A stretch of 25,806 nucleotides of DNA, taken from positions 1-25,806 of the forward strand of contig CAIYXE010000052.1 in assembly GCA_903930095.1 (NCBI GenBank). The letters are read 5' to 3'. The notes below the pieces were generated by a model. That model worked only from the letters and a program-made list of their open reading frames with translations. It was not told the DNA's origin and searched no databases. The DNA comes from an uncultured Hyphomicrobiales bacterium. Lineage in GTDB: Bacteria > Pseudomonadota > Alphaproteobacteria > Rhizobiales > Aestuariivirgaceae. Of this stretch, positions 5,603 to 20,648 are shown piece after piece. The position numbers and the translations under genes were made by a program. The stretch's first letter is position 1. Every line of letters begins with the position of its first letter.

Positions 5603-5938
5603 TCAGCTGAGCTGGTCGAAGGTTTCCAGCGCCCTCGCGGCATACACAGCACCCGGTCCGCCCGCCATCTCGACTGAGACGGCCAGCATCTCAACAAGTT
5701 CCTCACGCGAGGCGCCATGTTTCTTGGCGGCCGCGACGTGATAGACGATGCAATCCTCGCAACCCTTGGCCACCGCGATTGCCACCGCGGTCAGTTCCTT
5801 GATGGCGGGAGAGATCTTGCCCTCCCGCGTTGCGGCCACGGTCAGGCCGTTGAAGGCCATCATCGTCTGCTTCTCGGCCTTGAACAGCCCCATGAGGCGG
5901 GCATTCACGGATTCGAGTTTTTGCTTGGCGTCAGACAT
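5603..5938 (-). CDS. Carboxymuconolactone decarboxylase / AhpD-like family protein
   Basis: A 111-residue protein of the AhpD/CMD fold. The diagnostic motif is the redox pair and histidine in GCEDCIVYHVAAAKKHGAS (CxxC followed by H), preceded by LTAVAIAVA. Such proteins act as peroxidase or decarboxylase partners, usually as oligomers in the cytoplasm. The ATG at 5938 is chosen because a GGAGAA Shine-Dalgarno lies just upstream on this strand; an open-frame extension to 6076 would overlap the ATPase gene. It starts 14 nt after the ABC ATPase stop and is probably the last gene of that operon. Its substrate cannot be inferred; it may detoxify or process a product of the imported compound. Confidence 0.87.
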   Translation of the reverse strand: MSDAKQKLESVNARLMGLFKAEKQTMMAFNGLTVAATREGKISPAIKELTAVAIAVAKGCEDCIVYHVAAAKKHGASREELVEMLAVSVEMAGGPGAVYAARALETFDQLS

Positions 5939-5952
5939 GTATTTCTCCGGTT

Positions 5953-7047
5953 CTAGAAGAAGGCCTTGCCGTTCTCTTTCGAGAAGGCGTGCCACTTCGA
6001 GCGGTTGACGGTCATGTAGCAAGTCTGGCCTTCCACGCCTTCGAAGTCGGTCGAGGTCTTGACGCGTACGCGGCAATCATCCAGGTCGACGTCGATGATC
6101 ATGTCGCCGCCCAGAAGCTCGGTCACGAAGATCTTGCCGGTGATGTGGTCATCTGACGGCTTGGTCATGGAGATCGACAGCGCATCGGGCCTAACACCCA
6201 CGCGCAGCGCATTCTGGCGCGCACCAGACGCGATGATCCGCTGCTGCTCGTCGTTGACGGCAATCGCAAAGTTGGGGTGGACGAAATGCGTGCGCCCCGC
6301 CCGGTCCTCGATCTTCGCATCCATGAAGTTCATCGCGGGCTCGCCCACGAATCCGGCGACCCAGGCATTGACCGGCTTGTTGTAGACCTCGCGCGGGGAG
6401 CCCAGCTGCTGCAGCTCGCCGTCATGCATCACGGCGATGGTGTCAGCCATCGACATGGCCTCGAGCTGGTCATGCGTCACGTAGATCATGGTCGTTCCCA
6501 GCGTGCGCTGCAGATGCTTGATCTCGCCGCGCATGTGGGCGCGGAGCTTCGCGTCAAGATGGGCGATAGGCTCATCGAACAGGAACAGGTTCGGCTCGCG
6601 CACGATGGCGCGGCCGATGGCGACGCGCTGTTTCTGACCGCCGGACAGTTCCTGCGGGCGCCGCTCCAGCAGGTGCCCAATCTCGAGCAGCTTTGCCGCC
6701 GCGGTCACGCGCTCCCTGATCTTGGCCGTATCCTGGCCACGCAGCTTCAGGGGGTTCGCCATGTTGTCGAAGACGCTCTTGTGCGGGTAGAGCGCATAGT
6801 TCTCGAACACCATGGCAACGTCGCGGTCCTTGGGTGGCAGCGCGTTGATGGGCTTCTCGTCGAACAGGATCTCTCCCGACGTGATGTGCTCAAGACCGGC
6901 CACCATGCGCATGGTCGAGGACTTGCCGCAGCCCGAGGGACCGAGGACCGACAGGAAGGAGCCGTCCGGACACTCAATGTTGAGATCCTTTACGGCGGAG
7001 ACGTTGCCGTACTTCTTCCAGACGTTGCGGAACGAAACTTTCGCCAT
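5953..7047 (-). CDS. Carbohydrate-type ABC importer ATPase (MalK/UgpC-like)
   Basis: A 364-residue ATPase of the carbohydrate uptake CUT1 type, with nucleotide-binding domain followed by a TOBE-type regulatory domain. Visible motifs are Walker A GPSGCGKS (36-43), signature LSGGQ (134-138), Walker B LFLFDE (154-159), D-loop AHLDAK and switch His in VTHDQ (His192). The Q-loop position carries Glu rather than Gln (VFENYALYPHK, Glu82; codon GAG read directly). The start has a clear AGGAG site. It energises the two permeases encoded immediately upstream. The substrate is unknown; the neighbouring aco genes suggest a carbonyl, polyol or sugar-like compound, which is inference. Confidence 0.93.
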   Translation of the reverse strand: MAKVSFRNVWKKYGNVSAVKDLNIECPDGSFLSVLGPSGCGKSSTMRMVAGLEHITSGEILFDEKPINALPPKDRDVAMVFENYALYPHKSVFDNMANPLKLRGQDTAKIRERVTAAAKLLEIGHLLERRPQELSGGQKQRVAIGRAIVREPNLFLFDEPIAHLDAKLRAHMRGEIKHLQRTLGTTMIYVTHDQLEAMSMADTIAVMHDGELQQLGSPREVYNKPVNAWVAGFVGEPAMNFMDAKIEDRAGRTHFVHPNFAIAVNDEQQRIIASGARQNALRVGVRPDALSISMTKPSDDHITGKIFVTELLGGDMIIDVDLDDCRVRVKTSTDFEGVEGQTCYMTVNRSKWHAFSKENGKAFF

Positions 7048-7059
7048 TGTGAGCTCCTG

Positions 7060-7938
7060 CTATTCCTTGACCGCGCCCATGGTGAGGCCGGTGACGAGAT
7101 ATTTTCTGATGATGAGACCGAGGAACATCATGGGGAGCGCGGTGACGGTACCGGCTGCCATGATCTGACCCCACTGGATGTTCTGCGGCTGGACCAGCTC
7201 ACGCGTGGCGGCGGGCAGCGTCTTGGCGCCGCCCGAGCCGATGATGGCTGCGAACAGGTAGTCGTTCCACGCGAAGAGGATGCACAGCACGACGAAGGCG
7301 CCGATGCCGGGGGCCACCAGCGGTAAGATGGCGCGCAGCGCCTGGAACCGCGTGGCGCCGTCCACCATCTGCGCTTCCTCGATGGCGTATGGCACGTTGT
7401 CGAAGAAACCTTTCAGGATCCAGATGGCAAAGGGAAGGTTGAAGGTGGTGTAGGCGAGGATGAGGCCGGGCAGTGTTCCCACCAGGTTCAACTCGCGGAA
7501 GATCCAGTAGAGCGGCACAAGAACCGCCACCACCGGCGCCATGCGGGTCGAGATGATCCAGAAGAACAGATCGCTCTTGCCGCGGAACTCGATGCGGGAG
7601 AGCGAATAGGCGCACATCGAACCCAGCACCACCGACACCACGGCCGACCCGCCCGCCGCGACGAGCGAGTTAAACAGGTAAGTCGAGAAACCAAGGTTGG
7701 CGAAGAGCTCGTAATAGTGCTTGGTCGTCGGCGTGAAGCTGAAGAATACGGTCACGCCGGCCCAGTCGCCAACTGCAGGAATCTGGAACGCCTCCAGCAG
7801 GTCCTTGAAGGACGACATGAACATGATGAAGATCGGCAGGACCGTCCACACCATATAGAAGGCGATGAACACCACCGAGAACCACTTGAACACCTTCGAG
7901 GGCCAGCCCTCGTATTGGATGACTTCGCGGGATGCCAT
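7060..7938 (-). CDS. ABC transporter permease, MalG/UgpE type
   Basis: A 292-residue inner-membrane permease with six predicted helices, beginning after a short cytoplasmic lead (WFSVVFIAFYMVWTVLPIFI). The cytoplasmic EAA coupling loop is clear: EEAQMVDGATRFQALRAILPLVAPG, shown here as two parts of one motif at about residues 190-214. It lies between the partner permease and the ATPase with gaps of 3 and 12 nt, so the genes are cotranscribed. The C-terminus ends LVTGLTMGAVKE, typical of CUT1 MalG-like subunits. Specificity cannot be assigned from sequence alone. Confidence 0.93.
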   Translation of the reverse strand: MASREVIQYEGWPSKVFKWFSVVFIAFYMVWTVLPIFIMFMSSFKDLLEAFQIPAVGDWAGVTVFFSFTPTTKHYYELFANLGFSTYLFNSLVAAGGSAVVSVVLGSMCAYSLSRIEFRGKSDLFFWIISTRMAPVVAVLVPLYWIFRELNLVGTLPGLILAYTTFNLPFAIWILKGFFDNVPYAIEEAQMVDGATRFQALRAILPLVAPGIGAFVVLCILFAWNDYLFAAIIGSGGAKTLPAATRELVQPQNIQWGQIMAAGTVTALPMMFLGLIIRKYLVTGLTMGAVKE

Positions 7939-7941
7939 GGC

Positions 7942-8946
7942 TTAGACCTTCTTGGGTTGCTGGCGGTCGAAGATGCGGACCAGCAGCATGCCGAGGATGA
8001 TGGTGACGATGAGCAGGATGAGTGCAATCGCGGCACCCCGCCCGAGCTTGAAGAACTTGAAGGACACCTCGAAGAGGTAGACCGGCAGGATCTTCGTCGA
8101 ATTGCCGGGCCCGCCGCCGGTGAGCACCAGGATGGAGTCGATGAAGCGGAAATTGTCCATGAAGCGCAGCATGATGGCGATGAGCAGCACGGGATAGAGG
8201 TTGGGCAGGGTCACCGACACGAAGTTGCGCAAGGGCGACGCACCGTCCACCATGTTGGCTTCGAGCTGGTCCTGCGGCACGCGCTTGAGACCCGCCAGCG
8301 TGATGAGGGTGATGAGCGGCGTCCACTGCCAGACGTCCACCAGCACCAGCCCGATCATGGCCGTGTCGGCGCTGGCGAGGATCGACTTGGGCCCAAGGAT
8401 CCCAAGGCTCTGGAACAGCCAGTGATACCAGCCGAATGTGCCGTTATAGAGGAAATACCAGACCATGCCGGCCACAAGCGGTGCCACCATCATGGGCATC
8501 AGCAGTGTGGTGACAAGCACTTTTTCCCAGCGTGAACCGTTGAGCGCCACGGCAAGAAACACGCCGATGAAGAGCTGCAGCGTGAGGCACATGACGCTGT
8601 ATTGAATGAGGAGCCACCAGCCCGAAAGGAAGCGCGTATCGCTGGCAAGCTTGGTGAAGTTCTCGAAATTGTTCCATTCGACCTTGCCGATGTCCACGTC
8701 GTGGAGGCTCATGTAGATCATCCAGAAGAATGGATAGATCGAGATGAAGGCGAGCACGATGATGGCGGGCATCATCAGCCAGAAGTAATAGGCCTTGGAT
8801 GCGGCAGGGTTGATCGACGGCGGGTCAGCCGCGACATAGGAAACTGGCTTCGATTCGACGCTGTCGGGAATCTGCCTGACGCGGAACAGTTCGATTCCGC
8901 CTGCAAGGCCCTTCGGCCGGTCGATCGTGGTGCTGGAATTGGACAT
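7942..8946 (-). CDS. ABC transporter permease, MalF/UgpA type
   Basis: A 334-residue permease. The ATG at 8946 is preceded on this strand by AGGGGA at a good distance; an upstream in-frame start at 8967 would bury this site. An unusually long N-terminal cytoplasmic segment of about 55 residues precedes the first helix (YYFWLMMPAIIVLAFISIYP). Five further helices follow, with an EAA-type loop (LEANMVDGASPLRNFVSVTLP). It ends three bases before the second permease. A stable hairpin separates this gene from the upstream binding-protein gene and probably sets their relative expression. Confidence 0.92.
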   Translation of the reverse strand: MSNSSTTIDRPKGLAGGIELFRVRQIPDSVESKPVSYVAADPPSINPAASKAYYFWLMMPAIIVLAFISIYPFFWMIYMSLHDVDIGKVEWNNFENFTKLASDTRFLSGWWLLIQYSVMCLTLQLFIGVFLAVALNGSRWEKVLVTTLLMPMMVAPLVAGMVWYFLYNGTFGWYHWLFQSLGILGPKSILASADTAMIGLVLVDVWQWTPLITLITLAGLKRVPQDQLEANMVDGASPLRNFVSVTLPNLYPVLLIAIMLRFMDNFRFIDSILVLTGGGPGNSTKILPVYLFEVSFKFFKLGRGAAIALILLIVTIILGMLLVRIFDRQQPKKV

Positions 8947-8978
8947 GGGTTCCCCTGCGAGCAGCATCGCATTTTGGT

Positions 8979-9025: not shown

Positions 9026-10555
9026 TCAGCCCGCGCCGTTCAGCTCGTCGAGCTGGGTCTGGATCGACTTCGCGGCCTCTTCCGGAGACTGCTCGTTCGA
9101 CAGGCACTTCTGCACTTCCGCGGCGAGGATCGAGTGATACTCGTTGCCGTTCGGGATCTTCGGTCCGAGCACGAAGTTCGGGTCCTTGATGCCGAAGTTG
9201 TAGACGGGGTCGAAGGTCAGTGCGTTCGGCATGTTGGTCGGACGCTGCTGGGCCTTCTTGACGTCTTCGCGCTCGAGCACGGACTTGCGGGTCGGCGTGC
9301 CGCCCAGGCCCTTGAGAACGTTGTACTGGTTCTCCTGGGACACCGACCAGATCGCGAAGATGTAAGCCGCACGCTTGAGGTCGTCGGAAGCATTGCCGTT
9401 GATGCCGATGCCGCCGATGCCGCAGTTCGTGCCGTTGACCGCCTGGCCACCGTTCTTGATCCACTTGGGATCGCCCTTCGGGCAGGGGGCATAGGCGGTC
9501 TTGCCGCCGGCCGCGCGCGAGGTCTTCTCGTCTTCAATCGAAGCGGCGAACTCGTGATACTGCGTCTGCATCGCGATGTTGCCGGACTGGTAGACGGTGT
9601 TGAGCTCGAGCGTGCCGTTGGCCAGGTTGTCCGGGTGGCAAACGTCCGCCAGTTCCTTGAACTTGCCAAGCATGGCGATAGAGGACTCGTCGCCCCAGTT
9701 CGTCTTGCCCGGCTCCTTGGCGCCGTAGACGTCGTCGATGTTCCAGTCCATCCACCGGCCGTTGGCGAAGAGGAAGCGCTGGATGTCGAGCTGTGTCGTC
9801 CACGCGAAGGAACCCTGGTGCTGGGCGTAGCCATAGGGCACGTCCTTGCCGGCTTCCTTGGCCTTCTTGAAGAAGGCCGCCATGTCGATCACGTTCTGCC
9901 AGGTGGAGTCCTGGTTGAACTCGAGGCGATAGCCATATTCCGCTTCGAAGTCCTTGGAGTTGGCCTCGAACAGGTCCTGGCGGTAGAAGGTACAGGCGAT
10001 CGCTGCGTCATAGGGGAGCGCAATGATCTTGCCCTTCTCGTAGAAGCGTCCGCAGGCAGAGAGGAAGTTGGGGAACCAGGCGTCGTCGCCATAGCCTTCC
10101 GGATCCTGCGGCAGGGTCTCGTCGCCGAACATCGGCGTCATGTCGGCGTAGAAGTCGGCGAAGGGCGAGCCGATCGGCTTGTCCTGAACGTAGTTGAGCA
10201 CGTAGTCGGCCTTGCCGCCGCGCAGATCGATACCAACCTTCTGCTGCACGACCGGCAGGTCGTCCGTCAGAATGGTCACTTCAATGCCGGTCTTGTCCGT
10301 GAAGGCCTTGATATTGTCACGGATGGCGAAGGACGGCGGGGTGTTTTCCGACATGAAGACGAGCTTCGAGCCGGCATACTGCTTCCATTTTGCATCGTCA
10401 GACGAAGCCGCCTGAACCTTGCTGCGCGTAACGGTGGAACTGAGGCCCAGCGTCATGCCGCCCACGCCGAGGGCGGAGGCTGCTCCGCCACCCAGTTCAA
10501 GGAACTTGCGGCGGCTGATGCGCTGATAGACTGCGTTTTTCGGAATCGAAAACAT
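9026..10555 (-). CDS. Extracellular solute-binding protein (family 1), Tat signal
   Basis: A 509-residue periplasmic binding protein. The N-terminus has a twin-arginine signal SRRKFLELGGG (residues 14-24), followed by a hydrophobic stretch and a likely cleavage after VQAAS, so it is predicted to be exported folded. The mature part shows the family-1 architecture (KLVFMSENTPPSFAIRDNIK, FTDKTGIEVTI, ALPYDAAIACTFYRQDLFE, GGIGINGNASDDLKRAAYIF). It is longer than typical sugar-binding proteins (about 400-450). A GGGAG site precedes the start. It is the first gene of the importer and begins 158 nt after acoC on the same strand. The ligand is unknown. Confidence 0.92.
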   Translation of the reverse strand: MFSIPKNAVYQRISRRKFLELGGGAASALGVGGMTLGLSSTVTRSKVQAASSDDAKWKQYAGSKLVFMSENTPPSFAIRDNIKAFTDKTGIEVTILTDDLPVVQQKVGIDLRGGKADYVLNYVQDKPIGSPFADFYADMTPMFGDETLPQDPEGYGDDAWFPNFLSACGRFYEKGKIIALPYDAAIACTFYRQDLFEANSKDFEAEYGYRLEFNQDSTWQNVIDMAAFFKKAKEAGKDVPYGYAQHQGSFAWTTQLDIQRFLFANGRWMDWNIDDVYGAKEPGKTNWGDESSIAMLGKFKELADVCHPDNLANGTLELNTVYQSGNIAMQTQYHEFAASIEDEKTSRAAGGKTAYAPCPKGDPKWIKNGGQAVNGTNCGIGGIGINGNASDDLKRAAYIFAIWSVSQENQYNVLKGLGGTPTRKSVLEREDVKKAQQRPTNMPNALTFDPVYNFGIKDPNFVLGPKIPNGNEYHSILAAEVQKCLSNEQSPEEAAKSIQTQLDELNGAG

Positions 10556-10602
10556 GCGCGTTTTCTCCCATGATGATTATCATTGTCTTGAGTTGCTGGC
10601 AG

Positions 10603-10623
10603 GGCACGCGGTAAGCGCGTGCC
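10603..10623 (-). terminator. 8-bp inverted repeat between acoC and the binding-protein gene
   Basis: GGCACGCG and CGCGTGCC flank a five-base loop, within the 158-bp interval between acoC and the importer. It could reduce read-through from the aco operon or stabilise its message. There is no U-run on either side, so a Rho-independent terminator is not demonstrated. The rest of the interval shows no convincing sigma-70 or sigma-54 promoter to my eye, so whether the importer has its own promoter is open. Confidence 0.35.
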
Positions 10624-10713
10624 GCGCTTGCGCTTCCTGCCGAAGGTCTTCACGCTTACCTGCGAATGTGCCTCCTTTCTCTGGCCGCAACTTCGGCCCT
10701 CAAGAGCGTGCGT

Positions 10714-11826
10714 TCATGCACCTGCGACGTGCGCCTTGATGAGGTTGTTCACGTCGCTGGCCTTTTCCATGAAGACCATGTGCCCGGCTCCTTCCAGCAC
10801 ATGCACATGGGCGCCCGGCAGATTTGCGGCATGGGCGGCAGGGATGATCTCGTCATGCTTGCCCCAGATCACCAGGGTCGGGGGCAGCTTGCCTGCCAGC
10901 GCCTTGCCCGGCGCGTCGGCCTGCTTGCCGCCGCCGAAGAGGGCAGCCGCGAGCGACTTGAGGAGCGGTTCGACGCCGTCCAGGCGCTTGAACTTCAGCA
11001 CGTCGTCGACCAGCTGGCGGCTCACCAGGCTCTTGTCGGCGAACAGCTTCTCCAGCACCGGCTTCAGGTCCTTGCGGCCCTGGGCTGCGACGTATTCGTC
11101 GACGTAGCTGCCGATGTCGGAGCCGAGGCCCGCCGAGCAGATGAGAGTCAGGGACTTCACCTTCTCGGGGTGCTCTGCCGCCATCTGCATGGCGATAGCG
11201 CCGCCCATGGAATGCCCCACGAGATGCGCCTTGCCAATGCCGAGCTTGTCCATGAAGGCCGCCAGGGCGTTCTTCATGGCGGCAAGGCCCGGCTTGTCAA
11301 GCTTCTTGGAAGACTGGCCGTGGCCCGGCAGGTCGAGGGCATAGACGGTTGCCTTCTCACCCAGCGCGTCGATATTGAACAGCCAGTTGTCGAGATCACC
11401 GCCGAAGCCATGGATCAGGATGATGGTCTCGGCGCCGTCGCCGCGCTTGGCATAGCGGAGGTTGCCCGCCGCCGTGTCCGCGAACTCGAACTTCGGGCCC
11501 TGGTCCTCCTCGCCCTCGTCCGCCGCCGGCGTCACATAGGCTGCGACGAATGCATCGATCTCAGAGTCGGGAACCGCGGGGTCGGCGATGACGCCGAGCA
11601 GAGTCTTCACCGGGTACATCGTGTCGGCCTGGCCGACGCGCCGTCTCAGCACGCCGGCCTCATGCGCTTCGACGGATCCCGCGATCTTGTCGGTTTCGAC
11701 CTCGAGGATCGCGTCACCGACATTGATCTTCGAGCCATCTTCCAACAGCCAGCCCGTCACTTTACCCTCCTTCATGGAGAGGCCCCACTTGGGCATGACG
11801 ATCGGCACGATACGGGTATCTGTCAT
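10714..11826 (-). CDS. acoC: Acetoin dehydrogenase E2-like protein: lipoyl domain fused to alpha/beta hydrolase
   Basis: A 370-residue protein. Residues 1-80 form a biotinyl/lipoyl domain with the lipoylation site in EVETDKIAG (Lys47). A linker (about 95-115) leads to an alpha/beta-hydrolase domain with oxyanion region LIHGFGG, nucleophile elbow GHSMGG (Ser206) and a late His in GAGHMVFME. The canonical acyltransferase catalytic domain with HxxxDG is absent, as in the AcoC of Pseudomonas putida. ATG at 11826 is chosen over GTG at 11832 because GAGGAA lies at proper distance from the former. It is the last gene of the aco operon. It should move the two-carbon unit from the E1 enzyme to CoA. 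Confidence 0.92.
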   Translation of the reverse strand: MTDTRIVPIVMPKWGLSMKEGKVTGWLLEDGSKINVGDAILEVETDKIAGSVEAHEAGVLRRRVGQADTMYPVKTLLGVIADPAVPDSEIDAFVAAYVTPAADEGEEDQGPKFEFADTAAGNLRYAKRGDGAETIILIHGFGGDLDNWLFNIDALGEKATVYALDLPGHGQSSKKLDKPGLAAMKNALAAFMDKLGIGKAHLVGHSMGGAIAMQMAAEHPEKVKSLTLICSAGLGSDIGSYVDEYVAAQGRKDLKPVLEKLFADKSLVSRQLVDDVLKFKRLDGVEPLLKSLAAALFGGGKQADAPGKALAGKLPPTLVIWGKHDEIIPAAHAANLPGAHVHVLEGAGHMVFMEKASDVNNLIKAHVAGA

Positions 11827-11858
11827 AGTCACTTCCTCACTTGATTACGGGCGGCAGC

Positions 11859-12866
11859 TCAGTGCGCCATCGATCGGTTCACGGCCTTGGCAATCGCATC
11901 GGCCGAGGGGATGTAAAGGTCTTCGAGCACCGGCGAGAACGGCACCGGCGTATGCGGCGCCGTCACCATCTGGATCGGGCCCTTCAGCGCCTTGAAGCAC
12001 TCCTGCGAGATCATCGAGGAGACGTCAGACGCGATCGAGCAGCGCGGGTTGGCTTCGTCGACGCAGACGACGTGGCCGGTACGCTCGGCCGAGTCGATCA
12101 CCGTATCCCAGTCGATGGGAGACAGCGTGCGCAGGTCGATCACCTCGCACTCCACACCTTGCTTGGCCAGTGTGGCCGCGGCATCCATCGCACGGTGCAC
12201 CATCATGCCGTAGGTCACGATGGTGGCATGCTTGCCGTCACGCACGATGTTGGCCTCGCCGAAGGGAATGGCGTAGGACTCGGTCGGCACGTCGGTTTCG
12301 AGGCCGTAGAGGTTCTTGTGCTCGCAGAAGATCACGGGATCATTGTCGCGGATCGACTGGATGAGCAGACCCTTCGCGTCATAGGCGTTGGACGGGCACA
12401 CCACCTTGAGGCCGGGGATGTGCACGAAGAGCGGCGTCAGCATCTGGCTGTGCTGGGCGGCGGCACGGAAGCCGGCACCCACCATGGCGCGGATGACGAC
12501 GGGCGTTTCCGCCTTGCCGCCGAACATGTACTTGAACTTGGCGGCCTGGTTGAAGATCTGGTCGAAGCAGACGCCCATGAAGTCGAGGAACATCAGTTCC
12601 GCCACGGGCCGCATGCCGCAGGCCGCCGCGCCGACGGCCGCGCCGATATAGGCCGACTCGGAGAGCGGCGTGTCGAGCAGCTTGCCCTTGTGCTTGGCAT
12701 GCAGGCCCTTGGTGACGCCAAGAACGCCGCCCCATGCATCTTCTTCGCCTTCACCGCCCGCACCGCCGACGATGTCTTCACCCATCACGATCACATTCGG
12801 ATCGCGGGCCATTTCCTGGTCGAGCGCCTCGTTGATCGCCTGGCGCATGCTGATCTTGCGTGCCAT
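11859..12866 (-). CDS. acoB: Acetoin dehydrogenase-type E1 component, beta subunit
   Basis: A 335-residue transketolase-fold protein with the pyrimidine-binding domain first (IVMGEDIVGGAGGEGEEDAWGG, DTPLSESAYIGAAVGAAACGM) and a C-terminal transketolase domain (ATIVTYGMMVHRA, EVIDLRTLSPID, VCVDEANPRCSIAS). It pairs with AcoA to form the thiamine-diphosphate E1 that cleaves acetoin or a related alpha-hydroxyketone. A GGAGAG site precedes the ATG, 19 nt after acoA. Beta subunits of acetoin, pyruvate and branched-chain E1 look alike; the call as AcoB depends on acoX, acoC and AcoR around it. Confidence 0.93.
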   Translation of the reverse strand: MARKISMRQAINEALDQEMARDPNVIVMGEDIVGGAGGEGEEDAWGGVLGVTKGLHAKHKGKLLDTPLSESAYIGAAVGAAACGMRPVAELMFLDFMGVCFDQIFNQAAKFKYMFGGKAETPVVIRAMVGAGFRAAAQHSQMLTPLFVHIPGLKVVCPSNAYDAKGLLIQSIRDNDPVIFCEHKNLYGLETDVPTESYAIPFGEANIVRDGKHATIVTYGMMVHRAMDAAATLAKQGVECEVIDLRTLSPIDWDTVIDSAERTGHVVCVDEANPRCSIASDVSSMISQECFKALKGPIQMVTAPHTPVPFSPVLEDLYIPSADAIAKAVNRSMAH

Positions 12867-12885: not shown

Positions 12886-13884
12886 TCAGTAGCTGTTATA
12901 AACATCGGTGAGCAGGTCGGCGGCCGTCGGCAGCGGGGCTGCCTTGGCGGAGGCCACTGCATCCTGGATCTGCGCGACGATCTCGCGGTCCATCGCGTCC
13001 AGTTCGCCGCGGCCGATGACCCCGGATTCGGTGACACGCTGCGAGAACATCTTGATGCAGTCCTTGTTGACGCGGATGTCCTCAAGCTCGCCCTTGGCGC
13101 GGTAAGTCTGCTGGTCGCCCTCGAAGTGGCCGAACATGCGGATCATCTTGCACTCGAGAAGCGCCGGTCCGCCGCCTTCACGCGCACGCTTGATGATTTC
13201 GCCGGCAGCTTCGTAAACGGCAAAGAAGTCGAGGCCGTCCACGGTCACGCCCGGCAGGCCGAAGCCCGCTGCGCGGTCGACGTAGGAGTCGACGGCGACG
13301 GCGTAATCGCGCGAGGTCGATTCCGCATAGCCGTTGTTCTCGACCACGAAGATCGCAGGCAGGTTCCACACGGCAGCCAGGTTAAGGCTCTCGAGGAAGG
13401 TGCCCTGGTTCGAGGCGCCGTCGCCCACGAAGCAGATCGCCACAGCACCGTCGCCGCGGTACTTGGCGGCCAGTGCCGCGCCGCAGACCAGCGGTGCGCC
13501 GGCGCCGAGGATGCCGTTGGCGCCCATCATGCCCTTGGACAGGTCGGCGATGTGCATCGAGCCGCCCTTGCCGCGGCAGGAACCCGTCACCTTACCGTAG
13601 ATTTCCGCCATCATCTCCTTGGGGTCCACGCCCTTGGCGATACAGTGGCCATGTCCGCGATGAGTGGAGGCGATGCGGTCCTTGTCCTCGAGATGCATCA
13701 TGATGCCGGTGCCGGCAGCCTCTTCACCCGCATAGAGGTGAACGAAGCCCGGAATGTCGCCCTTGGCGAAGTCCGCGTGGAGGCGTTCCTCGAACTCGCG
13801 GATCGTGCGCATGGTCCTGTAGGCCTTCAGCAGTCCCGGCTTGTCCAGCGGGAAAATTCCCGCCGTGCTGTTTGGAGCAGTCAT
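12886..13884 (-). CDS. acoA: Acetoin dehydrogenase-type E1 component, alpha subunit
   Basis: A 332-residue E1 alpha subunit. The thiamine-diphosphate/Mg2+ motif starts at FVGDGASNQGTF and ends about 30 residues later at VVENNGYAES (GDG...NN). Other family segments are YRTMRTIREFEERLH near the N-terminus and THRGHGHCIAKGVDPKEMMAE. The ATG at 13884 has GGGAGG at good distance; a TTG one codon upstream is less likely. It lies between acoX and acoB. Substrate specificity (acetoin versus another alpha-hydroxyketone or 2-oxoacid) cannot be read from sequence, but the gene set is that of acetoin dehydrogenase. Confidence 0.93.
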   Translation of the reverse strand: MTAPNSTAGIFPLDKPGLLKAYRTMRTIREFEERLHADFAKGDIPGFVHLYAGEEAAGTGIMMHLEDKDRIASTHRGHGHCIAKGVDPKEMMAEIYGKVTGSCRGKGGSMHIADLSKGMMGANGILGAGAPLVCGAALAAKYRGDGAVAICFVGDGASNQGTFLESLNLAAVWNLPAIFVVENNGYAESTSRDYAVAVDSYVDRAAGFGLPGVTVDGLDFFAVYEAAGEIIKRAREGGGPALLECKMIRMFGHFEGDQQTYRAKGELEDIRVNKDCIKMFSQRVTESGVIGRGELDAMDREIVAQIQDAVASAKAAPLPTAADLLTDVYNSY

Positions 13885-13918
13885 CAATGTCCTCCCATGG
13901 GTTTAAAGTTGTCGTTGT

Positions 13919-14950
13919 TCATGCCGCGGCGCCGGGTTTGGACCGCATCAGCCCGTGGCGCGATGCGTACTGCATGCAGCCGCTGACATTCACGGTGCGG
14001 AACGCATCGGGCACCAGCTCGATCGTCACATCGTCGTCGCGTGTGAAGGATAATTCACGCTCGCCGTCGAGCGCAATTGAACCGTCCGTGATCGACGGAC
14101 GGTATTTGACGTTGGGCTCCATCGGCGCGAAGTCGCGGATGCCGATGCCCCGCATGTAGCCGGGCGCGATGGGGGTATCGAGGATGATGTTGGCCTCGTC
14201 CTCGGGTGCCAGGCGCACATGCAGGCCGCCGGGGTCGAGCCGGGTCACCGGCGTCAGCAACCCGGCGATCGCCGACATGCCGATCACTTCCGGGTCGGCG
14301 AAGGTCACGAAGAGTTCGCGGAAGGTCTCGGTGCGCCACAGGGCCCGCGCGCCGATGTAGCGCTCGGTGACCACGGCCACGTCCACAAGTGCGATCTCCT
14401 CATGGTCGTTCACCCGCACCACGATCTTCTTGTTGGGCAGGAATGCTTCCTTGGGGGGCACCTTGCCGGTCACGGCGAGGCCCACGGCCAGGCCGGTGAT
14501 GGTGGGTTCGCGGTGCTCGGGGAATGCATTGTTCGTGCCCGTCGAAATGCCCGCGATGGGAACATCGCCGCAGGACGTCACCACGGCGCGGTGGGTGCCG
14601 TCGCCGCCCAGCACCACGATGGCGGCAACGCCCTTTTCCTTCATCAGCCGGGCACCCTTCAGCGTGTCCTCAACCGTGCCCGAAATCTTATAGTCGAGAT
14701 ATTCGAGCTTGGGGAAATGCTTCAGCCCCTGGTTCTCGGCCCGGTCGATGCCGCGGCGCACATGGTGCCGGATGCCGCCATTCTCCGGCATCATGTAGAC
14801 ATGGTCCACCCCGCAGGCCTTCACGCAGGACAAGACGCGCAGCACGATATTGGCACGGTCGGTAATCTGCAACGCCGTGGCATTGGCGATCACCCGGCGG
14901 ATGTCGCGCGCAGATACCGGATTGGCGATGATGCCAATGGCGCTTCCCAT
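13919..14950 (-). CDS. acoX: AcoX, ATP-NAD kinase-like protein of the acetoin operon
   Basis: A 343-residue protein with the NAD-kinase-type nucleotide motif GGDGTHR (about 115-121) and downstream GISTGTNNAFPE, and an N-terminal GIIANPVSARDIRR typical of AcoX. AcoX is regularly encoded with acetoin dehydrogenase but its exact role is unsettled. I chose ATG 14950 because the frame is open further to 15133 only across the sigma-54 promoter and activator-site region. From this start the predicted transcript has a leader of about 29 nt. No strong Shine-Dalgarno is visible. First gene of the acoXABC operon. Confidence 0.88.
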   Translation of the reverse strand: MGSAIGIIANPVSARDIRRVIANATALQITDRANIVLRVLSCVKACGVDHVYMMPENGGIRHHVRRGIDRAENQGLKHFPKLEYLDYKISGTVEDTLKGARLMKEKGVAAIVVLGGDGTHRAVVTSCGDVPIAGISTGTNNAFPEHREPTITGLAVGLAVTGKVPPKEAFLPNKKIVVRVNDHEEIALVDVAVVTERYIGARALWRTETFRELFVTFADPEVIGMSAIAGLLTPVTRLDPGGLHVRLAPEDEANIILDTPIAPGYMRGIGIRDFAPMEPNVKYRPSITDGSIALDGERELSFTRDDDVTIELVPDAFRTVNVSGCMQYASRHGLMRSKPGAAA

Positions 14951-14989: not shown

Positions 14990-15005
14990 AGCAAGCAACG
15001 TGCCA
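14990..15005 (-). promoter_or_regulatory. Sigma-54 (-24/-12) promoter of acoXABC
   Basis: On the - strand the sequence reads TGGCACG-TTGC-TTGCT. The -24 GG and -12 GC are exactly 10 bases apart and every base of the consensus TGGCACG-N4-TTGCW is matched. Transcription should start near 14979, about 29 nt before the acoX ATG. The upstream neighbour encodes a sigma-54 activator, so sequence and context agree. Confidence 0.93.
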
Positions 15006-15092: not shown

Positions 15093-15129
15093 CGCCACAC
15101 ATGTAGCGCGAACCGCAACATGTGTGGCG
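15093..15129 (-). promoter_or_regulatory. 12-bp inverted repeat, probable AcoR upstream activator site
   Basis: CGCCACACATGT (15093-15104) and ACATGTGTGGCG (15118-15129) are perfect inverse complements 13 bases apart, centred about 130 bp upstream of the predicted acoX transcription start, the normal position for an enhancer-binding protein. A related half-site ATGTGGCG lies at 15142-15149, at the very end of acoR. The right arm also overlaps a 10-bp palindrome (15124-15133). No U-run follows on the - strand, so an acoR terminator is less likely, though the hairpin could have both roles. Confidence 0.7.
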
Positions 15130-15139: not shown

Positions 15140-17119
15140 CTATGTGGCGCGCGGGCGCAGCGTGACGCCCAGCCGCCTCATGCGGCGGTGCAGCGTGGTA
15201 CGGTCGATTCCCAGAAGGCGTGCGGCGGCGGAAACATTCCACTGCGCTTGAGCAAGGTGCTGGCGCAATATGGCGGCCTCCTCGCTCATGTCGGCGGGCA
15301 ACAATTCCACGCTACCGGGTATTGCCTCGCGGGCGCGGGTGAACACCTGGTCCGGCAGGTCGTCGATGCCGACTTCCGGATCGCTTGCCACGGCACAGGC
15401 AAAATCGATCACGTTGAGAAGTTCGCGGATATTGCCCGGCCAGTGATAGGCCGAGAGCACGCCCAGCGCCGTCGCTGAGATGCTGCGGGCCGTACCATCG
15501 GCATAGGGCCGCTTTTCGAGTAGCTGCTTGACGATCCAGCCGAGGTCAGAGCGGTCACGCAGCGCCGGCAGGGCGATGGTGGCGCCATTCAGGCGGAAAT
15601 AAAGGTCCTCGCGGAACTTTCCCTGCTTGACGAGGTCGAGGAGGTCGCGGTGGGTGGCCGCGATCACCCGCATGTCGACGGCAGTGGGCTTCGCCCCGCC
15701 GATGGGGGTCACCTCGCGCTCCGCCAGAACGCGCAGCAGGCGCGTCTGGGAGGCCAGCGGCATGTCGCCGATCTCGTCGAGGAACAGTGTGCCGCCATGG
15801 GCCTCGCGCACCAGTCCCTTCTTGCCCTTGTCGAGTGCTCCGGTGAAGGAGCCGGCCTCATAGCCGAACAATTCGCTCTCGATCAGGTTCTCGGGCAGTG
15901 CTGCACAGTTGACGGGAACGAAGGCAGCCCTGGCCCGCGCACTCGATTGGTGGATGGCCTTGGCGAGATACTCCTTTCCCGTGCCTGTCTCGCCATTCAC
16001 CAGAATGCTCATGTTGGTGTTGAGCAGGCGGGCGAGTTTCTTCAGATTCTTCTGGATCGCGGCATCTTCACCGGCGACGGCTTTCAATGCGGGGTGGAGC
16101 TTGTGGTCCTCTTCCGCCATAGCGGATGGCAGCACGCGAATGGTTTTGGGTGGCACCACCTGGATAAACAGGTTTCGCCCCGACGATCGCGACCTGACGA
16201 CATTCCTTTCGATCGCATGAGACGCCACATACCGCGTAAGGCTGTCGATCTCGCAGTCGAAGGCGTCGCTGATCGGCCGCCCGAGAAACATGGCCGTGTT
16301 CCGCCAGTCCGTTGCGAACTCCTCGGCAAGCAGGCGGGCGCCAAGATTGTTGAACCCCGTGATGTTGCCGGAGGAATCAAGAACCAGCACATATTCCGTA
16401 TCGACCTCCGCCAGGGCACGGTTTGAGGTCAGCTTCACGATCCAGTTCCGCGAGCAGGATCGGATCAGATTGGCGGTTTCGATCCTGTGGGCAAAGTTCT
16501 TGACCATCTGCAAAGCCAGGAACTGGCTCGACTTCTCCTCCGGCGACATCAGCGCCGCGACGTCCAGCACGGCGGCAAGCTTGCCTGCCGCGTCGAAGAT
16601 CGGCGCTGCCGTGCAGGTGAGTGGAATATGCGTGGCGTCGAAGTGATCGCTCTTGTGAACGACGAGGGCTTCACCCGTCGCGATTGTCGTACCCACCCCA
16701 TTGGTGCCAACCAGCGTTTCGCTCCAATCGAAGCCATGGTGAAGACCAGCCGAACGCGCCTCTTCTGAAACAGCGGAATCACCGATGTAATCAACCGTGA
16801 TCCCGTTCTGATCGGTAAGCAGCAGGAGATAGCCGAGGCCCGAAATCTGGCTGTAGAGCGCCTCGACGCCGAAGCGCGCGGTGCGCAGCAGCTCCTCCAT
16901 CGCCTCGCGGTGTTCGCGCAGGCGGCCGTCCTCCACGATCACGGCGGGGCGCAGCACGGTGGGGTCCAGCTTGTGGCCGTCGATGCAGCGCCGCCAGGAC
17001 GCAAGTATCAAATCGTCACGATTCGTGCTGCCGCCCTCAGCGACCCGGACGAGTTCCTTGATATGCTCTACCTTGGCGGACAAAATGTCTTTATCCTCAC
17101 TTGGGGAGAGTATCGGCAT
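15140..17119 (-). CDS. acoR: Sigma-54-dependent transcriptional activator, AcoR type
   Basis: A 659-residue enhancer-binding protein. The N-terminal half has a GAF-like sensing domain (about 75-210; motif FDWSETLVGTNGVGTTIATG) and a PAS-like segment (about 240-325). The AAA+ domain has Walker A GETGTGKE (376-383), the sigma-54-contacting loop as GSFTGA (423-428) in place of GAFTGA, and Walker B LFLDE (445-449). A Fis-type helix-turn-helix ends the protein (WNVSAAARLLGIDRTTLHRR). It lacks a receiver domain, so a small ligand is the likely input. It lies between two operons that both carry -24/-12 promoters, and probably activates both. Confidence 0.92.
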   Translation of the reverse strand: MPILSPSEDKDILSAKVEHIKELVRVAEGGSTNRDDLILASWRRCIDGHKLDPTVLRPAVIVEDGRLREHREAMEELLRTARFGVEALYSQISGLGYLLLLTDQNGITVDYIGDSAVSEEARSAGLHHGFDWSETLVGTNGVGTTIATGEALVVHKSDHFDATHIPLTCTAAPIFDAAGKLAAVLDVAALMSPEEKSSQFLALQMVKNFAHRIETANLIRSCSRNWIVKLTSNRALAEVDTEYVLVLDSSGNITGFNNLGARLLAEEFATDWRNTAMFLGRPISDAFDCEIDSLTRYVASHAIERNVVRSRSSGRNLFIQVVPPKTIRVLPSAMAEEDHKLHPALKAVAGEDAAIQKNLKKLARLLNTNMSILVNGETGTGKEYLAKAIHQSSARARAAFVPVNCAALPENLIESELFGYEAGSFTGALDKGKKGLVREAHGGTLFLDEIGDMPLASQTRLLRVLAEREVTPIGGAKPTAVDMRVIAATHRDLLDLVKQGKFREDLYFRLNGATIALPALRDRSDLGWIVKQLLEKRPYADGTARSISATALGVLSAYHWPGNIRELLNVIDFACAVASDPEVGIDDLPDQVFTRAREAIPGSVELLPADMSEEAAILRQHLAQAQWNVSAAARLLGIDRTTLHRRMRRLGVTLRPRAT

Positions 17120-17219: not shown

Positions 17220-17235
17220 TGGCACGCGACGTGCA
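17220..17235 (+). promoter_or_regulatory. Sigma-54 (-24/-12) promoter of the formamidase-Lin0512 operon
   Basis: TGGCACG-CGAC-GTGCA: GG at 17221-17222 and GC at 17233-17234 are exactly 10 bases apart, with one mismatch from TGGCACG-N4-TTGCW. The predicted start is near 17246, giving a leader of about 49 nt before the ATG at 17295. It lies in the divergent 175-bp interval upstream of the acoR start, so the same activator may drive it. Confidence 0.85.
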
Positions 17236-17294: not shown

Positions 17295-18281
17295 ATGGAC
17301 TGGATCAGCGAGAGTTACATGGGCCGAAAGGCTGTTGCGCGGGGCACGGCGGGCAAGACCCACCTCCTGAACAAGGAGGTGCAGGGCGAATACCACTATG
17401 TCTACGGACCCTATGCCAAGCCGGTCATGACGATCAGCCCAGGCGACATCGTTGTCGCCGAAACGGAGGATGCCTTCGGCGGCGCCATCAAGACCGAGAA
17501 GGACCTGCCGTCCCAGAAACTGAGGATGCCTTTCGTCAATCCGCAATGTGGACCGATCGCGGTCGAGGGTGCGGAACCGGGTGACGTGCTCTGCGTCCAC
17601 ATCCATTCGATCCTGCCGCGCGGAGAACAGCCCGTCGGAACCTCGGCACTGATCCCGGAATTCGGCGGCCTCGTGTCCAACGGGCAGACGGCGATGCTGA
17701 ACCCACCGCTTCCCGAACGCGTGATGAAGTATGAAGTGACCGAAAAGGGCGTGAAATTCAACGACCGGGTCACCCTGCCCTACGAACCGTTCATCGGCAC
17801 GCTCGGCGTCTCGCCGCTGATCGAGGCGGTACTCTCCTTGCAGCCTGATTACTGGGGCGGCAACATGGACCTGCCGGATGTCGCACCCGGCGCAATCGTC
17901 TATTTCCCTGTCCTTCACAAGGATGCCTACCTCTATATCGGCGATTGCCACGGCCGCCAGGGAGACGGAGAACTCTGCGGCGTTGCCGTCGAGATGCCAT
18001 CGACAACGACCGTGCAGGTCGATCTCATCAAGAACTGGCAGATTTCCTGGCCACGGCTCGAGAATGAAGACTTCATCATGACCATCGGCTCGGCACGGCC
18101 CATGGAAGATGCCGCGCGCATCGCCTATCGGGAGCTTACGCGCTGGCTCGCAGCGGACTATGGCTATGACGAGCTCGAGGCCTATTTCCTGCTCACCCAG
18201 GCCGGCCGCGTGCGCGTCGGCAACATGGTTGATCCGAAATACACGCTTGGTGCATCAATTCTGAAATCATATCTCGTCTGA
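17295..18281 (+). CDS. Acetamidase/formamidase family protein
   Basis: A 328-residue protein of the FmdA/AmdA family, amidohydrolases that release ammonia from formamide, acetamide or related short amides. Family motifs visible are SPGDIVVAETEDAFGG, the NPxxGP element as NPQCGPIAVEGAEPGD, WGGNMDLPD (acidic metal-site region) and GDCHGRQGDGE (His/Asp/Glu site). No signal peptide, so cytoplasmic. First gene after a sigma-54 promoter, followed 15 nt later by the SDR gene. Usual FmdA enzymes are somewhat longer (around 400), so this is the shorter, less characterised branch and its substrate may not be a simple amide. Confidence 0.87.
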   Translation: MDWISESYMGRKAVARGTAGKTHLLNKEVQGEYHYVYGPYAKPVMTISPGDIVVAETEDAFGGAIKTEKDLPSQKLRMPFVNPQCGPIAVEGAEPGDVLCVHIHSILPRGEQPVGTSALIPEFGGLVSNGQTAMLNPPLPERVMKYEVTEKGVKFNDRVTLPYEPFIGTLGVSPLIEAVLSLQPDYWGGNMDLPDVAPGAIVYFPVLHKDAYLYIGDCHGRQGDGELCGVAVEMPSTTTVQVDLIKNWQISWPRLENEDFIMTIGSARPMEDAARIAYRELTRWLAADYGYDELEAYFLLTQAGRVRVGNMVDPKYTLGASILKSYLV

Positions 18282-18296
18282 CAGGGAGGAACGACA

Positions 18297-19061
18297 ATGG
18301 ATCTTGGTCTCAAAGGTTTGAACGTGCTCGTCACCGGTGGCACAAAGGGCATCGGCCGCCGTGCGGCGGACATATTTGCCGCGGAAGGCGCCAATGTATC
18401 GATCTGCGCGCGCAATGCGTCGGAGGTGGCTGAAACAGTCCAGAGCCTCAAGAAGCAGGGCGTCGCCGCCTTCGGACAGGCAATCGACGTGGGCGACAAG
18501 GCCGCCCTCGAGGGCTGGGTCCACGAGAGTGCCAAGGCTCTGGGCGGCATCGATATCGTGGTCGCCAATGTTTCGGCGCTGGCCGCGGCGGAAGACACCG
18601 AGGCTTCATGGAAGGCAGAATTCGAGATCGACATGATGCACACGGTGAGGACCGTCAACACCTCCCTGCCCTATCTCGAGAAGTCGAAGTGGCCCTCAAT
18701 CGTGATCGTGTCCTCCGTGTCGGGCCGCGAGATCGACTTTACGACTCCCGCTTATGGCGCCTTCAAGGCGGCCCTCATTCACTACGCGCACGGCCTGGCG
18801 CACAAGCTGGCGCCGAAGCTCATCCGCGTGAACTCGGTCTCACCAGGAAACGTCTATTTCAAGGACGGCATCTGGCATTACATCGAGCAGAACATGCCGG
18901 ACCTGTTCAAGCAGGCGCTCGCCCTCAATCCCACTGGCCGCATGGCGACCGCGGAGGAGATCGGCAGCGGCATCGTGTTCCTCGCAAGCCCCGCCTCGAG
19001 CTTCACCATGGGCACCAATCTGGTGATCGACGGTGCACTCACCAAGGGCGTTCAGCTCTAA
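18297..19061 (+). CDS. Short-chain dehydrogenase/reductase (SDR)
   Basis: A 254-residue classical-type SDR. The N-terminal nucleotide motif is TGGTKGIGRR; the catalytic Ser and Tyr-Lys are in IVSSVSG and AYGAFKAA. The usual NNAG motif is replaced by VVANVSA, and the tetrad Asn position (normally in DVNLxG) appears to be Asp (EIDMMHTVRT), so this is not a textbook family member. The C-terminus (RMATAEEIGSGIVFLASPASSFTMGTNLVIDG) is standard. Strong GGGAGGA site before the ATG. Could interconvert a ketone or hydroxyketone in the pathway; specificity is unknown. Confidence 0.9.
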   Translation: MDLGLKGLNVLVTGGTKGIGRRAADIFAAEGANVSICARNASEVAETVQSLKKQGVAAFGQAIDVGDKAALEGWVHESAKALGGIDIVVANVSALAAAEDTEASWKAEFEIDMMHTVRTVNTSLPYLEKSKWPSIVIVSSVSGREIDFTTPAYGAFKAALIHYAHGLAHKLAPKLIRVNSVSPGNVYFKDGIWHYIEQNMPDLFKQALALNPTGRMATAEEIGSGIVFLASPASSFTMGTNLVIDGALTKGVQL

Positions 19062-19077
19062 CCCAGGGAGTACCGCA

Positions 19078-19920
19078 GTGGCTTCGAACAGGACGATAGA
19101 ACTGCCAAGCGGGGCTGTGCTGCATGCCCTTGAAGAGGGTGTGGGCCAGCCTCTGGTGATGATCCCCGGCTGGTCGCAATCGGCTGCGGAGTTTGGCCGG
19201 AACATCACGGAACTGGCCAAGTCGCGCCGCGTCATCGCCCTCGATATGAGAAGCCACGGCGAGAGCCCCGACGCCGCCTCAGGCCACCGCATCCAGCGGC
19301 TTGCCAAGGACCTGGAGGAGGTGCTCGCCATCCTCGGCATCGACAGTGCCGATGTGCTCGGCCACTCGATGGGCAGTTCCATCATCTGGAGCTATCTCGA
19401 CCTCTTCGGCACGAAGAGGCTCCGCCGCCTGGTGATCGTCGACCAGGCGCCGATGGTGGCGGCCCTTCCCGGATGGGACGAAGACACGAAGAAGAAGTTC
19501 GGCTGCCTGCTGCCTGACGTGCAGTCGGTTGCCGGCTTCTGTGACGCCGTGCGCGCCACCGGCAGTGTCGATGGCACCATGGACATACTCAAGGGCATGT
19601 TCACCGCTTCATTGCCTGAGCAGGACCTGCGCTGGATCGCCTCCGAGAACCTCAAGATGCCGCGGGCCGCAGCCGCGGATCTTCTCTTCGATCACTGCCT
19701 CAATGACTGGCGCGATGTGATCACCGGAACGAGGCTGCCGGCACTCGTCATCGGCGGCCGCAAGAGCATTTTCTCTCCTGAGTCCCAGGAGTGGATTGCG
19801 TCGGTTAATCCCAACGCCAGGGCCTCGATCTACGAGGCGCATGAAGGTGGCGGGCACTTCATGTTCTTCGAAAACCCCCGCCGCTTCAATGATGAAGTGG
19901 CGGCTTTCCTTTCCGCATGA
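19078..19920 (+). CDS. Alpha/beta-fold hydrolase
   Basis: A 280-residue alpha/beta hydrolase. The GTG at 19078 is preferred: AGGGAG lies seven bases upstream, and the in-frame ATG at 19033 would overlap the SDR end. Motifs are oxyanion region MIPGWSQSAAEF, DMRSHGES, nucleophile elbow GHSMGS, and the catalytic His in GGGHFMFFENP. No signal peptide. It may cleave an ester, enol-lactone or C-C bond of the pathway intermediate. Third gene of the sigma-54 operon, 16 nt after the SDR and 18 nt before the first Lin0512 gene. Confidence 0.89.
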   Translation: MASNRTIELPSGAVLHALEEGVGQPLVMIPGWSQSAAEFGRNITELAKSRRVIALDMRSHGESPDAASGHRIQRLAKDLEEVLAILGIDSADVLGHSMGSSIIWSYLDLFGTKRLRRLVIVDQAPMVAALPGWDEDTKKKFGCLLPDVQSVAGFCDAVRATGSVDGTMDILKGMFTASLPEQDLRWIASENLKMPRAAAADLLFDHCLNDWRDVITGTRLPALVIGGRKSIFSPESQEWIASVNPNARASIYEAHEGGGHFMFFENPRRFNDEVAAFLSA

Positions 19921-19938
19921 ATTCAGACAGGAGACCAC

Positions 19939-20289
19939 ATGGCGCTCACCCGCATGATCGTCGAAATCGGCATGGGTACGGACCTCACCGGGGCCGACTA
20001 TACCAAGGCCGCGATACGCGCCCTCAAGGACGCGCTCTGGCACAACTCCCTCACCATCGCCAACGCCGTGGGGCTGACGCCCCATGACATGCATGTGAAG
20101 GTTCTGGTGGGCGTGCCAAGGCCCGATCTGGTGGACAAGGCAGCGGTGGCAGCGACCCTGCCCTACGGCAAGTCCACCGTCGAGGTCGTCGAAGGCGGCC
20201 TCGAGATCATGAACGATGAAGGAACCAATCTGACGCTGATGGCAAATGCCGCAGCGATCGTCTACCTCGACATGCCGGAGAAGAAGTAA
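19939..20289 (+). CDS. Lin0512 family protein, paralogue 1 (divergent motif)
   Basis: A 116-residue protein of the Lin0512 family (unknown function). It shares with the next gene the pattern MALxRxIxExG, DYTKAAxRA, VDKAAVAAxLP and VVxGGLxI, so the two are tandem duplicates. The family's N-terminal GxGxDxHG motif is GMGTDLTG here, with Thr for His, and the later PHG is PYG. The loss of two histidines suggests a structural or regulatory partner rather than the active copy, if the histidines are catalytic or bind metal. ACAGGAGA precedes the start; stop and next start overlap as TAATG. Confidence 0.82.
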   Translation: MALTRMIVEIGMGTDLTGADYTKAAIRALKDALWHNSLTIANAVGLTPHDMHVKVLVGVPRPDLVDKAAVAATLPYGKSTVEVVEGGLEIMNDEGTNLTLMANAAAIVYLDMPEKK

Positions 20290-20648
20290 TGGCTCTGAAG
20301 CGCATCATCCTCGAAATGGGCCACGGCAATGACATGCATGGTGGCGATTACACCAAGGCGGCGCTGCGCGCCGTCCAGGACTGCATTCACCACTCCTCGT
20401 TGCCGTTCCTGCGGACCTTGTCCATCCCGCCCGCAGAGATGCAGATCGAGGTGACGATCGGCGTTCAGCAGCCGGACAAGGTGGACAAGGCGGCGGTTGC
20501 TGCCAGCCTGCCGCACGGCCAGGTGACGGTGAAAGTCGTCAAGGGCGGCCTCGACATTCCCGATGAGGAGCGCGGCGGTGTATCCGTGATCGCCATGGCA
20601 GGTGTGGCGGTTCGGCTTGATCTCAATGAGCGGCTCGGACTTTCCTGA
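20289..20648 (+). CDS. Lin0512 family protein, paralogue 2 (canonical motif)
   Basis: A 119-residue protein starting on the last base of the preceding stop (TAATG), so the pair is translationally coupled. It carries the intact family motif GHGNDMHG at residues 11-18, plus HHSS and LPHG. The family has been noted in scattered bacteria and in plants without an assigned function. Coupling with paralogue 1 suggests a hetero-oligomer. Last gene of the operon; its stop is nine bases from the stop of the convergent STAS gene, with no obvious terminator hairpin between. Confidence 0.85.
   Translation: MALKRIILEMGHGNDMHGGDYTKAALRAVQDCIHHSSLPFLRTLSIPPAEMQIEVTIGVQQPDKVDKAAVAASLPHGQVTVKVVKGGLDIPDEERGGVSVIAMAGVAVRLDLNERLGLS

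Follow-up and report, generated by a model that had tools for sequence, protein, structure and literature searches.

The locus studied here raises the question of why an acetoin-type dehydrogenase operon should stand back to back, across the gene of a sigma-54 activator, with an operon that begins with an acetamidase/formamidase-family gene. It lies on a stretch of 25,806 nucleotides from an uncultured Hyphomicrobiales bacterium (assembly GCA_903930095.1, contig CAIYXE010000052.1), which is contig C52 of a 3.9 Mb genome in 820 contigs and is called the window below. The minus strand carries acoR, acoX, acoA, acoB, acoC and the genes of a binding protein, two permeases, an ATPase and an AhpD-like CMD protein, in this order. 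The plus strand carries, divergently, the formamidase-branch gene, a short-chain dehydrogenase/reductase (SDR) gene, an alpha/beta hydrolase gene and two Lin0512 genes. The formamidase and SDR genes are 15 bases apart, the SDR frame overlaps the hydrolase frame, and the Lin0512 genes overlap by one base. Pfam and NCBIfam models found the genes named in a first-pass annotation of this DNA where it had placed them. The favoured explanation, with a probability of about 0.58, is a peripheral catabolic pathway coupled to the acetoin-type dehydrogenase. All parts belong to known families; the joined set was not found in the literature searched (open-licence papers), where no paper was found with both acetoin dehydrogenase and acetamidase.

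Linkage was surveyed in 37 genomes of the genus, the source genome included, at E limits of 1e-120 for acoR, 1e-60 for the binding protein, 1e-80 for the formamidase and 1e-60 for acoX. The formamidase branch was found in eight genomes and the binding protein in exactly those eight (Fisher p 2.6e-8, which overstates independence since the genomes are related). acoR was present in the same eight and in G001, and Lin0512 in the same eight and in G001, G017 and G034 (G, L and C numbers denote genomes, loci and contigs). acoX was detected in nine of the 37, six of them among the eight; of the two among the eight that lack an acoX match, G010 has a contig that ends inside acoR, and the other is G029. 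At the level of loci, the best 80 of 398 confirmed formamidase stretches were kept. In seven of these 80 (L016–L022), acoR is divergent to the formamidase gene as in the window, and the Lin0512 pair follows in six; L021 ends after the formamidase gene. The nearest formamidases to that of the window came from metagenome-assembled genomes (MAGs), several labelled Aestuariivirga, which is probably the genus of the source bacterium too.

The set was also found in a new order in an Alsobacter MAG (L037), with acoA, a cut acoB, acoX and the genes of the CMD protein, AcoR, the importer, the formamidase, the SDR and the hydrolase. Importer, formamidase and SDR genes form one row there, divergent from acoR, and no Lin0512 pair lies within the stretch examined. 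The SDRs of L037 and the window are 76% identical, and the neighbouring hydrolases 47–49%. In a formamidase tree of 88 rows, L037 stood apart from the genus clade and grouped with L032, L033, L035 and L043 (support 100/100). The tie is therefore either old or arose twice. The first-pass annotation had stated that its reading would fall if linkage of the two operons were not conserved in relatives, and this linkage holds in 8 of 37 genus genomes and in the Alsobacter locus. A mobile catabolic island beside photosynthesis genes, whose neighbours were inherited together without a common function, would fit the patchy occurrence in the genus (8/37) and the Lin0512 pairs of other members, which have similar-looking flanks and different partners. 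This explanation is improbable, since the gene set is kept in a different order in Alsobacter, the importer–aco unit is kept in another family, and the promoters are conserved.

Dehydrogenase-type genes were seen beside other formamidases as well. In L033 and L043, an E2 gene whose product combines lipoyl, E3-binding and hydrolase domains lies about 220–250 bases upstream of the formamidase gene; L032 has an acoC-like match at a comparable place, and L035 begins with the formamidase gene. L031 carries a fused E1–lipoyl gene at a distance of about 3 kb upstream, separated from the formamidase gene by transporter genes. A transaldolase/FSA-family gene accompanies the E2 gene upstream of formamidase(-SDR) in L032 (26–982) and L043 (175–1395), a putative acyloin-dehydrogenase-like setting of a different kind.

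The dehydrogenase genes showed the features of an aco system. The genes of the thiamine pyrophosphate (TPP)-dependent E1 and acoX follow the order X-A-B-C, an AcoR-type activator gene and a sigma-54 promoter precede acoX, and AcoC exceeds the curated cut-off for acetoin dehydrogenase E2 (Table 1). The products of acoA, acoB and acoX are 76%, 74% and 56% identical to those of the operon on Paracoccus denitrificans plasmid 1. Gene order and activator type are shared with the acoXABC/acoR operons of P. denitrificans plasmid 1, Chelatococcus and Azospirillum, and the AhpD-like CMD gene is also part of the P. denitrificans aco operon (proteins 54% identical). Unlike these operons, that of the window has no butanediol dehydrogenase or aco-type SDR gene, and it is joined by another importer and by the divergent formamidase–SDR–hydrolase–Lin0512 operon; the Chelatococcus locus has a different ABC (ATP-binding cassette) importer, divergent to its activator gene. 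As first noted, no lipoamide dehydrogenase and no butanediol dehydrogenase turned up in the scanned proteins of the window. Contig C703 of the same genome carries a lipoamide dehydrogenase gene, cut by the contig end (512.4 bits, cut-off 408.8), and the genome also encodes RpoN. The first-pass reading gains support here: the last step is likely made by an acetoin-type dehydrogenase. In P. denitrificans plasmid 1, an RpoN-annotated gene is divergent to acoXABC (L184, 7753–8943). In G034 (L187, 6296–13347), acoXABC is preceded by isochorismatase-family, gamma-glutamylputrescine-synthetase-like (below cut-off) and N-formylglutamate-amidohydrolase-family genes, which look like another nitrogen-type front end.

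The first enzyme of the divergent operon belongs to the acetamidase/formamidase superfamily, with a PF03069 match and structural matches to 5ubu (431 bits) and to 2ii1, an acetamidase (126 bits) with which it shares a GD-x-H...GDGE stretch. It is not an FmdA equivalog (NF045496, 82.9 bits against a cut-off of 500). An SDR more than 50% identical to that of the window follows within 300 bases in 44 of the 74 formamidase loci with enough sequence; the other six of the 80 were too short. The window SDR is 67% identical to the SDR that accompanies formamidase in an amide operon of Palleronia and 25–29% identical to the aco-linked SDRs of Chelatococcus, Paracoccus and the other family described below. 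Because this SDR is closer to amide-operon than to aco-linked SDRs, the formamidase–SDR pair seems to have been acquired from amide operons. Amide-utilisation operons that combine acetamidase/formamidase with a urea-type ABC importer and AmiC/AmiR-like regulators (the name AmiC follows from annotation and PMC13209695) share the formamidase branch, often with the same SDR. The window differs from them in its importer type, its sigma-54 promoter, its acoXABC link and its lack of AmiC/ANTAR regulators; no AmiC-like sensor, ANTAR protein or urea-type ABC importer was among the proteins scanned in 5603–21158. A tblastn search with the formamidase matched 1173 plasmid records, 745 of them from Klebsiella, and 1164 of the 1173 were less than 60% identical.

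The place of the SDR bears on a simpler explanation, in which acetoin or 2,3-butanediol itself is imported, the SDR is the butanediol dehydrogenase and the extra operon is dispensable. An SDR gene does follow acoC in the aco operons of Chelatococcus, Azospirillum and Paracoccus, and one stands near the importer in two loci of the other family. The identities given above set the window SDR apart from those of Chelatococcus, Paracoccus and the other family, and it fell below the cut-off for the BudC meso-2,3-butanediol dehydrogenase (NF052558, 140.7 of 270 bits). Acetoin and butanediol are also small molecules and are not known to require an importer of this kind. Direct import of either compound is therefore improbable. 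Acetoin or another acyloin is likelier an intermediate than the imported compound, which agrees with the first proposal.

The importer was traced beyond the genus. The binding protein was found in 5 of 385 genomes of the class at E 1e-60, namely the source genome and four genomes of one other family. Three of these four carry the binding-protein gene with permease, permease and ATPase genes and acoABC on one strand, two of the three with acoX and an SDR gene nearby; in the fourth, the stretch read contains no aco genes. Among plasmids, the binding protein had no match at E 1e-40. The units of the other family tie the importer to an acetoin-type dehydrogenase independently of formamidase. The idea of a dedicated importer was supported. 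The nearest solved structure to the binding protein is 5iai, a match too weak (E 0.00036) for a ligand to be read from it.

The promoters were examined on both sides of acoR. TGGCACGTTGCTTGCT at 15005–14990 (minus strand) is a -24/-12 element with 0 mismatches that ends about 40 bases upstream of the acoX ATG, and TGGCACGCGACGTGCA at 17220–17235 (plus strand) is one with 1 mismatch before the formamidase gene. With up to 2 mismatches allowed, the pattern matched 4 times in the window against a shuffle mean of 8.4, fewer than by chance, so it is their position and their conservation in relatives that give the sites weight. The acoX-side element is kept in 7/7 loci having the acoR–acoX gap (11 or 12 of 12 positions). 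On the formamidase side, TGGCAY-N5-NTGCA is kept in 7/8 genus loci, the exception being G029 (L137). The claim of -24/-12 promoters for both operons was thus confirmed and extended to relatives.

The acoR–acoX gap also holds palindromes of the form CGCCACANNTGTGGCG, at 0–2 mismatches in 7/7 loci; perfect CGCMACANNTGTKGCG sites numbered seven across 11 genomes, with six in this gap. In Alsobacter L037, a palindrome (1 mismatch; equalled in 1 of 500 shuffles) and a -24/-12 element precede the row from binding protein to SDR, and a second -24/-12 element without palindrome lies behind acoR, before the CMD gene and acoX. In each arrangement, one palindrome cluster is accompanied by sigma-54 elements on both sides of acoR. 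This layout fits one activator acting on both operons, and the formamidase operon is likely under AcoR control. In the four loci of the other family, no sigma-54 element or palindrome was found at up to 1 mismatch in the 11.5–19.9 kb read. In G001, where the Lin0512 pair alone is divergent to acoR, neither a -24/-12 element nor a palindrome was found on the Lin0512 side.

Several observations weigh against a single coupled pathway. Despite being 99% complete, G029 gave no match to acoX at E 1e-60, while it keeps the importer, formamidase, SDR, hydrolase, CMD and Lin0512 genes; its acoR is followed by a different ABC importer, a histidinol-dehydrogenase-family gene and an SDR gene (L137, 3392–9617). 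L016, from a genus member, has no hydrolase gene between the SDR gene and the Lin0512 pair. E1 beta also exceeds the subfamily model of pyruvate dehydrogenase E1 beta (327 bits, cut-off 321), so the E1 models alone cannot fix the substrate; E1 alpha is under the pyruvate dehydrogenase E1 alpha cut-offs. The four loci of the other family, including the three importer–aco units, contain no formamidase gene, acoR or Lin0512 pair in the stretches read. Formamidase–SDR pairs of relatives adjoin urea-type ABC importers, ANTAR-type regulators, amidases, acyl-CoA ligases or an HpcH-type aldolase, that is, they lie in amide operons with importers of another type. Before the formamidase gene of the genus loci no palindrome was found, the best candidates having 5–7 mismatches, the same as shuffles. 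A single activator may drive both operons, as first proposed; sigma-54 elements on both sides of its gene favour this, and palindromes that lie, in this genus, on the acoX side only weigh against it.

The last of these points, with the importer–acoABC units lacking formamidase in the stretches read and the amide operons having their own transporters and regulators, would suit two pathways side by side. The importer and acoXABC would then serve an acyloin or diol, and a separate formamidase–SDR–hydrolase–Lin0512 operon would release nitrogen from short amides, the two sharing merely the acoR intergenic region. Formamidase and importer nevertheless occur together in all eight genus genomes having either, the Alsobacter importer, formamidase and SDR genes stand in one row behind one sigma-54 element, and the formamidase operon of the window has no importer of its own. 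Two separate pathways are thus an unlikely alternative.

From gene content, order, linkage and promoter sequences, which are established, we infer each reaction, the substrate and AcoR control of the formamidase operon in the coupled pathway. Judged by their families, the ABC importer and its twin-arginine (Tat)-type binding protein would take up a polar compound that carries or becomes an amide, which the formamidase-branch enzyme would hydrolyse. The SDR would oxidise or reduce a secondary alcohol or ketone to give an acyloin or alpha-diketone. AcoAB with TPP would split this product, and AcoC would hand its acyl group over to CoA; the lipoamide dehydrogenase would come from a gene outside the locus, on contig C703. 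The probable role of the AhpD-like protein, modelled on the mycobacterial AhpD–lipoyl system, is electron exchange with the lipoyl arm of AcoC or protection of that arm from peroxide. Sigma-54 RNA polymerase would transcribe both operons, probably under AcoR.

Such couplings have precedents. On Sphingobium pSM1, the metaldehyde gene mahS lies beside CMD and aco genes, as a peripheral pathway would in the window; the first enzyme differs, and the term "ABC transporter" is absent from the main text of that report (PMC9676059). In the tetramethylpyrazine pathway of Rhodococcus jostii TMP1, the SDR TpdE is reported to act on N-(butan-3-one-2-yl)acetamide, acetoin and diacetyl (PMC4647570). This is the chemistry needed by an amidase–SDR–aco pathway; host and gene set differ, and the likeness is one of chemistry. 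If the coupled pathway is correct, the acetoin-type dehydrogenase is a shared outlet for different peripheral pathways, an importer family with a directly screenable ligand is named, and the Lin0512 family gains its first pathway setting. The testable ligand and the two-type rule of Lin0512 are the chief points of interest.

Both Lin0512 proteins are over the PF09585 and TIGR02058 cut-offs, and the predicted fold of the second matches 3c8l. These features place them in the family, and comparison of types distinguished two unlike types in tandem. The family occurs in Listeria, Azospirillum and about 1/13 of the class genomes sampled; of the 29 class genomes having it, 27 carry two copies, usually with other neighbours. 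No paper on Lin0512/TIGR02058 and no function for the family were found in the literature searched. Neighbours were compared all against all within 8 kb at 27 loci (25 of the class sample, L135 and L136; at least two more sampled pairs, those of G340 and G419, were left out). As candidates for a conserved partner, the four clusters in at least 5 loci were rejected, being the Lin0512 genes, their antisense frames and two 7-locus clusters at scattered positions; weak partners may have escaped notice, as gene prediction worked poorly in part of these genomes. The Lin0512 genes are a separable module, and their proposed specificity for this pathway did not hold. Their products probably make up a single enzyme of two dissimilar subunits that was recruited to the operon. 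A bolder proposal, a long shot, is that the locus degrades an N-acylated acetoin-type amino-ketone or amino-alcohol, for which N-(3-oxobutan-2-yl)acetamide, a known compound of tetramethylpyrazine breakdown, is an example. Once imported, the substrate would be deacylated and oxidised to an acyloin that AcoABC could take, and Lin1 and Lin2 would form a two-subunit enzyme of new activity whose active site would lie between the unlike subunits.

Some Lin0512 pairs had noteworthy neighbours. In G242 (L149, 8600–12300), the pair has a 35% SDR match on one side and, on the other, opposite-strand frames matching acoA (28%) and acoB (38%), all low identities. In G017 (L167, 9374–10504), a MenC-like enolase-superfamily gene (TIGR01928, over cut-off) follows the pair, and a gene 86% identical to it stands beside the second pair of G018 (L169, 4178–5305).

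Table 1. Features of the locus, with window positions, strand and basis of assignment.
Feature	Position	Strand	Basis
AhpD-like CMD protein (CxxC...H)	5603..5938	-	PF02627, 71.6 bits on longer 157-aa open reading frame (ORF)
ABC importer ATPase, MalK/UgpC-like	5953..7047	-	PF00005
ABC permease 2	7060..7938	-	PF00528
ABC permease 1	7942..8967	-	PF00528
Binding protein SBP_bac_8, Tat-like signal SRRKF	9026..10555	-	PF13416 and sequence
Gap between acoC and binding-protein gene, strong predicted RNA hairpins	10556..10713	-	Minimum free energy -60.5 kcal/mol, z -2.74 (one sequence, this window)
acoC, lipoyl-alpha/beta hydrolase E2	10714..11832	-	NF011457, 465.7 bits, cut-off 307
acoB, E1 beta	11859..12866	-	PF02779, PF02780
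acoA, E1 alpha	12886..13887	-	PF00676
acoX, NAD-kinase-fold protein	13919..14950	-	PF01513
Sigma-54 -24/-12 element before acoX	14990..15005	-	0 mismatches
Two palindromic candidate AcoR sites (CGCMACANNTGTKGCG)	15093..15129	.	Sequence pattern search
acoR, GAF-AAA-Fis sigma-54 activator	15140..17119	-	PF01590, PF00158, PF02954
Sigma-54 -24/-12 element before formamidase operon	17220..17235	+	1 mismatch
Acetamidase/formamidase-family enzyme (FmdA_AmdA)	17295..18281	+	PF03069, 118.1 bits, cut-off 27
SDR dehydrogenase	18297..19061	+	PF13561
Alpha/beta hydrolase, start uncertain	19033..19920	+	PF00561
Lin0512 protein type 1 (GMGTDLTGADYTKAA...DALWHNS)	19939..20289	+	PF09585, 115 bits
Lin0512 protein type 2 (GHGNDMHGGDYTKAA...HHSS)	20289..20648	+	PF09585, TIGR02058, over cut-offs

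Two starts were corrected from the sequence. The CMD gene starts at the ATG at 5938 (111 aa); the nearest solved structure to its product is the AhpD structure 5dik (75.5 bits). The acoX gene starts at the ATG at 14950 (343 aa) instead of the GTG of the 404-aa ORF; among the matches listed, alignments of plasmid acoX homologues begin at residues 24–66 of that ORF. The importer ATPase scored 422.4 bits with the UgpC model, below its cut-off of 432. The predicted hairpins at 10556–10713 could possibly set unequal expression of acoC and the binding-protein gene.

Photosynthesis-type genes border the locus at 23–5600 (reaction-centre H chain, rubrerythrin-domain protein, DUF3623 and class I/II aminotransferase). 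ORFs of similar length flank the Lin0512 pair in G001 and G017 (L135, L167) and also occur close to the second G018 pair (L169), hinting at an insertion-prone edge beside photosynthesis-type genes.

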